Shown in pieces: positions 1,203 through 1,707 of a stretch of 64,000 nucleotides of DNA. The notes under the pieces are model-generated. The model did not search any database, was not told where the DNA came from, and saw only the letters and a program-made list of their open reading frames with translations. How positions within the stretch are numbered: the first letter of the stretch is position 1; the number at the start of each line of letters is the position of its first letter. Source of the DNA: Bacteroidetes bacterium GWE2_42_24 (GTDB taxonomy: Bacteria > Bacteroidota > Bacteroidia > Bacteroidales > TTA-H9); the NCBI GenBank assembly GCA_001768515.1, contig MEOA01000001.1, forward strand, positions 248,001 through 312,000, given 5' to 3'. The position numbers were made by a program, and so were the translations under genes.

Positions 1203-1210
1203 CAAAAGTA
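1203..1210 (-). promoter_or_regulatory. -7 promoter box of the sensor kinase
   Basis: TACTTTTG on the minus strand fits TAnnTTTG and lies 34 nt before the kinase ATG. No TTG -33 element is visible at the usual spacing, so it may depend on an activator bound to the TTAACA repeats just upstream. Confidence 0.45.
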
Positions 1211-1235
1211 CTGTGAAAACCCTGATATTTTGTTA

Positions 1236-1275
1236 TTAACAACACATTAACATCACTATTAACAAGCCATTAACA
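1236..1275 (+). promoter_or_regulatory. four-copy TTAACA operator, 11-12 bp phased
   Basis: Four perfect TTAACA hexamers start at 1236, 1247, 1259 and 1270, spaced 11, 12 and 11 bp, so all face the same side of the helix. This is the architecture bound by OmpR/PhoB-family regulators as tandem dimers. The block lies between two divergent TAnnTTTG promoters (1203-1210 minus, 1297-1304 plus), and its last copy falls where the plus promoter lacks a -33 TTG. A link to the regulator paired with the adjacent kinase is inference. Confidence 0.6.
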
Positions 1276-1296
1276 CACATCATGGCAGCTGTGTTG

Positions 1297-1304
1297 TAAG
1301 TTTG
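1297..1304 (+). promoter_or_regulatory. -7 promoter box of the Cys-rich protein gene
   Basis: TAAGTTTG matches TAnnTTTG, 37 nt before the ATG at 1342. The expected -33 TTG is missing and the TTAACA repeats end 21 bp upstream, which suggests activated rather than constitutive transcription. Confidence 0.6.
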
Positions 1305-1667: not shown

Positions 1668-1707
1668 ACCCCTGTCGGTTGCTTTCCGTCAGGGGTTCTT
1701 TATTTTT
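1668..1707 (+). terminator. intrinsic terminator of the Cys-rich gene
   Basis: ACCCCTG (1668-1674) pairs with CAGGGGT (1690-1696); after a T-T mismatch CGG/CCG extends the stem. A T-rich tail (1697-1707) follows. The tail also contains the -7 box of the next gene. Confidence 0.75.

Follow-up and report, generated by a model that had tools for sequence, protein, structure and literature searches.

PHO boxes bring about activation in place of a -35 element, and in Bacillus subtilis the boxes of PhoP are TTAACA-like. In the CpxRA system, the kinase-regulator operon is divergent from the gene for the small exported protein CpxP, which is under the same regulator. PhoB-type regulators sit head-to-tail on direct repeats of 11 nt, and complex operators have several such units (PMC4415409, in the part available). 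The WalR box is given as the direct repeat TGTWAH-N5-TGTWAH in the accessible text of PMC4168254, and a table in the accessible text of PMC5405149 has TTAACACTACCTTAACA as a predicted YycF site. In Flavobacterium psychrophilum, the Bacteroidota -7 element was placed from -12 to -5 (PMC9723704, excerpt).

The locus that we describe here is made of parts of known kinds: TTAACA boxes, two divergent promoters, a two-component system and a gene for a small exported protein rich in lysine and cysteine (Table 1). As far as we searched, neither the double operator conserved in this group nor its exported partner has been described; we found no description of the operator by title or start of abstract in the open-licence literature, and the words motif, consensus and binding site are absent from the main text of two RprY papers. 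Throughout, the window is the whole stretch of DNA that was analysed, 64,000 nucleotides long.

The array and its neighbouring genes

Table 1. Features of the locus, in positions of the window except where genome coordinates are given.
Feature	Position	Strand	Remarks
Sensor histidine kinase, first 389 of 435 residues	1..1168	-	start 1168; remainder left of the window
OmpR-type response regulator, 232 residues	genome C1:247159-247857		left of the window, 3 nt after the kinase
-7 element of kinase gene, TACTTTTG	1203..1210 (1210-1203)	-	25 nt from box 1; inferred transcription start ~1198
TTAACA box 1	1236..1241	+	read from sequence
TTAACA box 2	1247..1252	+	boxes 1-2 are the pair closest to the kinase promoter
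TTAACA box 3	1259..1264	+	read from sequence
TTAACA box 4	1270..1275	+	27 nt from its start to the TA of the -7 element of the exported-protein gene
-7 element of exported-protein gene, TAAGTTTG	1297..1304	+	TAnnTTTG; inferred transcription start ~1309
Exported Lys/Cys-rich protein, 100 aa	1342..1644	+	apparent signal peptide, low-complexity body
Hairpin CCCCTGTCGG...CCGTCAGGGG	1669..1695	+	one mismatch, T-rich DNA behind; by eye

The observation of the array is confirmed: all four exact TTAACA hexamers of the preliminary description are found at the positions it gave. Its steps of 11, 12 and 11 also stand, but its placement of the boxes on a single helix face does not, since the steps drift slightly off. 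As it had further noted, the array lies between divergent TAnnTTTG elements, and by eye there is no TTG at the -33 distance upstream of either one. A search of the 4.3-Mb genome for such arrays returned this one only (its two forward matches overlap, and one match came from the reversed control pattern), and when the 173-bp intergenic region was shuffled 200,000 times by mononucleotides, an array of three boxes never arose. TTAACA alone is not enriched in the window, with 54 matches, a shuffle mean of 45.4 and 8 of 100 shuffles reaching 54. The spacers between the boxes are unlike one another, and the boxes are all head-to-tail, hence unable to face both promoters alike. If the -7 element is taken to occupy -12 to -5 of the exported gene, box 3 would start near -50 and box 4 would span about -39 to -34 relative to the putative start; on the other side, the pair of boxes 1-2 would begin some 40 nt before the putative kinase start.

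The hairpin behind the exported-protein gene is its probable terminator; it is absent from the output of the terminator scan. By eye, a separate -7 element follows at 1701-1708, and hairpin and -7 element together suggest that the downstream OsmC gene has its own transcription.

The kinase has HisKA and HATPase_c, and the gene after it has Response_reg (receiver) and Trans_reg_C (winged helix), all above the Pfam cut-offs, so the paired regulator is OmpR-type, as had been supposed. Its best NCBIfam score is with RprY (NF051850; 249 bits, cut-off 370). There are four RprY-like regulators in the genome, the best of which is encoded elsewhere and reaches 318.7 bits, also below the cut-off of 370. 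The recognition helix could be read in only one sibling regulator, where it is RSLDVFISRLRSIL, similar to RSMDVFITRLRKYL in the adjacent regulator. Left of the regulator (L003:3813-7091) we noted a Crp/Fnr-type regulator, a multihaem cytochrome and a DUF5777 beta-barrel protein, neighbours that suggest a respiratory setting.

In an alignment of 49 kinases, two sensor columns four apart have Cys in 21 and 28 rows, a third column has it in 38, and the two spaced sensor cysteines of the window kinase form CX3C. No link was seen in these kinases between sensor cysteines and the exported gene (mean 3.1 in the 31 with the gene, 2.8 in the 18 without). The structure model of the sensor domain (pLDDT 82.7) has a WalK model as its best match (Z 8.1), and several PAS/Cache-like domains follow at Z 5-6.4, mixed with unrelated rows; Foldseek returned nothing at E <= 0.001 with this model, and the fold comparisons point to no clear ligand class.

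No Pfam family matches the exported protein above cut-off, and the same is true of six family members, none of which has a CpxP/Spy-type match at E up to 1. Membership of the CopL family of metal-binding proteins (NF033807) was rejected at 20.1 bits against a cut-off of 40. After residue 24, the exported proteins of the linked loci defined below are about 24% Lys and 7% Cys and nearly without aromatic residues or Arg, in a set of 37 proteins that includes those of L124 (DUF1573) and L119 and leaves out L069.

Conservation of the arrangement

The preliminary description depended on the array being kept upstream of orthologous genes, and this was found in other genera and families. The three-box pattern is present in 15 of 60 related genomes; in seven of these (G000, G001, G002, G004, G034, G043 and G047) such a kinase and a Cys-rich exported protein flank the array, and in the remaining eight it has other settings.

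A four-box scan of a public genome collection, using the array pattern alone, gave at least 116 loci. We call a locus linked when a homologous kinase reads away from the array, which applies to 42 of the 116 among the matches listed (40 labelled Bacteroidota and two Chlorobiota). In these 42, again among the matches listed, the middle step is 10 in 41 (11-10-11) and 12 in one, TAnnTTTG occurs 26-28 nt past the last box start in all, and a kinase-side TAnnTTTG occurs 25-29 nt from box 1 in 35. The 11-12-11 spacing of the host genus has a centre 2 bp longer than this family norm. Hexamers are constant in the linked loci and spacers vary; the logo of 40 linked arrays among the matches listed reads TTAACAtaTc.TTAACAGt.aTTAACA...c.TTAACA, with little conserved around the arrays except the -7 elements. 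The arrangement is kept beside kinases with sensor parts 18-39% identical to that of the window, one row of the same genus being at 60%.

The 74 unlinked loci among the matches listed have a middle step of 11 in 62 cases, all 11-11-11, of 10 in nine and of 12 in three. Spacers 1 and 3 agree within one mismatch in 38 of these 74 versus none of the 42 linked loci, among the matches listed. Three of the nine with a middle step of 10 (L120, L141 and L147) are scored unlinked by the linkage rule; they are 11-10-11, have by eye a kinase-like frame and a Cys-rich protein, and lack TAnnTTTG where it normally stands.

A small exported Lys/Cys-rich protein is encoded at 36 of the 42 linked loci among the matches listed; our rule for exported Cys proteins gives 37, one of which, at L124, is a DUF1573 protein. 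Among the other five, L119 (Cys-rich, few Lys) and L142, whose contig ends within a Lys-rich protein, resemble the Lys/Cys kind by eye, L125 is at a contig edge, L113 has a different exported protein, and at L087 no exported protein was found. The gene beyond the exported-protein gene, within 1,600 bases, is OsmC in 12 and flavodoxin in eight of the 42 linked loci among the matches listed, including L033, L046, L060, L078 and L137, and some contigs end before 1,600 bases.

Loci were also collected by their kinases, with a sensor profile (A1) that is biased towards array-bearing kinases, the 22 kinases behind it having come from loci with the array. Of 247 genomes of the order, 119 have matches to the profile, and full-length hits among the matches listed were used, partial hits being left out. 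We took 108 loci, L270 having been added for its array, and counted 107 after L205 (a 60-base upstream region) was dropped. A TTAAC-N6-TTAAC pair (9 of 10 letters) lies upstream of 73 of the 107 kinases (shuffle mean 3.6). The pair is accompanied by an exported-side -7 element at 26-28 nt in 31 of 107 (shuffle 0.0), at exactly 27 nt in 23 of the 31, and by a kinase-side -7 element at 25-29 nt in 38 of 107 (shuffle 0.0). Arrays of four boxes matching in 17 or more of 20 letters are present at 37 of the 107 loci and in 0 of 2140 shuffles; the reverse-strand count, 13 of 107 at 17/20, is an unclean control since TTAA is a palindrome.

The exported-side site is present in 26 of 31 loci with the Lys/Cys-rich gene versus 5 of 73 without it (104 rows counted, L222 labelled by hand; Fisher p 9e-15, uncorrected for ancestry). 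On well-supported branches there are three independent pairs, of which on average 1.8 agree, 0.0 oppose and 1.2 are undecided, and the association is not safe against shared ancestry. The gene occurs without the composite site at L181, L188, L189, L195 and L264, and the site without the gene at five loci, at least three of them adjoining another exported protein. Kinase-side sites accompany the gene at 19 of 31 loci and are present at 17 of the 73 that lack it, which suggests that the operator halves can serve the two promoters separately.

The kinase tree (106 rows) places the majority of the Lys/Cys-rich products in an unstarred group of 43 with support 91, and two small lines account for the others. 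Of two starred groups, one, of 21 rows, often shows only two boxes and includes five loci with a CAP-type exported protein; in the other, of 32 rows, 17 encode an exported DUF1573 protein, beside boxes that read TTTACA or TTAACA. By eye, TTTACA boxes go mostly with RSL/RTL recognition helices, a coincidence that may be one old event. The window's own genome holds a paralogous unit at C1:448091-448157 (L149, L270), where four TTAACC boxes spaced 11-10-11 separate another kinase gene from the gene of a different exported protein, of 252 residues; the -7 elements are 27 nt away on the exported side and 28 nt away on the kinase side. A third unit at C1:465385-468640 (L256) has the boxes TTTACC/TTTACA/TTTACA/TTAACC, a related kinase and an exported DUF1573-type protein.

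A global TTAACA regulon was rejected, the composite search of the own genome with up to 3 mismatches giving 15 matches versus 10 in the reversed control and thus little apart from the site described here; two paralogous kinase loci account for one 2-mismatch match (the four TTAACC boxes) and one 3-mismatch match. With up to 2 mismatches allowed, a scan across the phylum yielded 11 sites, spread over 9 of 395 genomes, and the reversed control had one match in another genome. DUF1573 units make up four of these sites (L271-L274), and in two of the four a -7 element at 27 nt is lacking. At L277, L280 and L281, from one family and two genomes of another lineage of the phylum, four-box arrays lie exactly 27 nt from a -7 element; the genes behind them encode apparently exported proteins, and a divergent kinase was not seen nearby. 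L275, L276, L278 and L279 have neither a DUF1573 unit nor a -7 element at 27 nt. In L278 and L279 we noted TTAACA..TGAACAG..TTCACA..TTAACA at about 1500, upstream of an apparent dnaA, and these are probably DnaA boxes and not this operator.

A candidate local circuit and its alternatives

We think it likely that the array is the operator of the adjacent OmpR-type regulator, which would activate the exported gene and autoregulate the kinase operon in a local circuit. The 11-10-11 pattern has the usual spacing of two predicted dimer sites, boxes 1-2 and boxes 3-4, each of which would take one of two head-to-tail regulator dimers. On boxes 3-4 the phosphorylated regulator would replace the -33 element and activate the exported Lys/Cys-rich gene in the manner of PhoB, and boxes 1-2 would serve autoregulation of the kinase-regulator operon, with either sign. 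The preliminary description had the regulator activating both its own kinase and the exported gene, a reading that is supported here. Activation of the exported gene fits the near-constant distance from box to -7 element where a -33 is lacking, and control of the kinase, which may be activation or repression, fits the geometry.

The exported protein would probably act outside the inner membrane as a buffer for metals or thiol-reactive compounds, or else feed back on the sensor, in whose outer domain cysteines are frequent. That the chemistry is one of metals or thiols is a guess from the Lys/Cys composition of the protein and the cysteines of the sensor. Counted against the proposed circuit are the 11-12-11 spacing, which is off the norm, the head-to-tail boxes, and the sibling regulator, which with its similar helix could bind too. 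The exposure of the gene-site association to shared ancestry, the loci that have gene or site alone, and the arrays of L120, L141 and L147 also weigh on this side.

The adjacent regulator might instead bind the array and repress one or both promoters. WalR/VicR sites can both activate and repress, with strand no predictor (accessible parts of PMC4168254 and PMC10746227), and the related RprY is described as a repressor in the accessible text of PMC6032018. However, neither promoter has a -33, box 4 stands in its place, and the 26-28 nt are held in the linked loci among the matches listed; we consider repression unlikely. It is also conceivable that the boxes are nothing but a functionless tandem repeat, as many four-box matches elsewhere are plain 11-bp repeats (the 62 of 74 unlinked loci spaced 11-11-11, and the 38 of 74 with near-identical spacers, among the matches listed). 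Dissimilar spacers in the window and an arrangement kept beside such divergent kinases already disfavour this reading, to which we give hardly any credence.

That the reader of the array is another regulator, sibling or global (the RprY-like copy on C52, PhoB or another paralogue), and not the adjacent one seems quite improbable to us. The number of RprY-like regulators in the genome and the similar helix of the readable sibling would allow it, and in G034 (L331 / L352) an exact two-box composite site lies before a Na/Pi transporter gene. That site is absent from 29 other Na/Pi loci, however, and Na/Pi transporter genes were rejected as a shared target, with loose pairs in 7 of 30 and the composite in 1 of 30; the RprX-type upstream regions described below, with their few loose pairs and no four-box array, also speak against such a reader. 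In 22 genomes chosen for carrying the unit there are 21 exact composite sites, 17 of them at this locus (reversed control 0): 15 genomes have the site here only, two here and elsewhere, one elsewhere only and four not at all, their boxes being off by at least one letter. From the 17 of 21, the proposed circuit of array and adjacent regulator looks local.

As a wider generalization, possible though doubtful, RprY-like systems of Bacteroidota might share a promoter code in which each reads TTAAC-type pairs or 11-10-11 double operators about 27 nt from TAnnTTTG. Many would drive a divergent gene dedicated to them, whose exported product (Lys/Cys-rich, DUF1573, CAP or others) reports back to its own sensor, with the Lys/Cys-rich branch as a periplasmic thiol/metal circuit. 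A conserved operator with fixed promoter geometry makes regulators assignable to targets by sequence, and this one offers a ready reporter for its two-component system. The finding also points to a family of exported Lys/Cys-rich proteins, six members of which have no Pfam match above cut-off.

Comparison with described two-component systems

The nearest named family of the adjacent regulator is RprXY of Bacteroides and Porphyromonas (249 bits). Identity with RprXY was rejected: the score is below 370 bits, and a regulator closer to RprY is found elsewhere in the genome. Among 18 RprX-type loci sampled, the kinase was found in 17, with a loose pair upstream in three, tandem pairs in none and no four-box array; 9 of 31 genomes have a regulator that exceeds the RprY cut-off, so not all 17 are certified RprXY. 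The kinases of these 17 loci have 469-583 residues versus 435 here. From the score, the copy elsewhere and the array-free RprX-type upstream regions, the two-component system of the window is, on sequence grounds, a sibling of RprXY and not RprXY itself.

The PHO boxes of PhoB/PhoP are like the present array in their 11-nt direct repeat units and multi-unit operators. PhoBR itself was rejected, the regulator scoring 162 versus 270 bits with Bacteroides PhoB (NF053854) and 143.6 versus 296.2 bits with TIGR02154, and the kinase (first 389 residues only) 73.8 versus 500 with NF053855; among the neighbour genes read there is no phosphate gene. The divergent layout is like that of CpxRA and CpxP, although the exported protein here lacks a CpxP/Spy-type Pfam match and differs in composition.

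The closest likeness in the boxes themselves is with WalR/VicR (YycF) of Bacillota. Both TTAACA-N5-TTAACA pairs match the WalR box exactly on the minus strand, and in each system the boxes are direct repeats with an 11-bp period, there bound by OmpR-type regulators and here predicted to be. WalR/VicR sites have two boxes, whereas the operator described here has four at 11-10-11 tied to the Bacteroidota -7 element, in another phylum and beside other genes.
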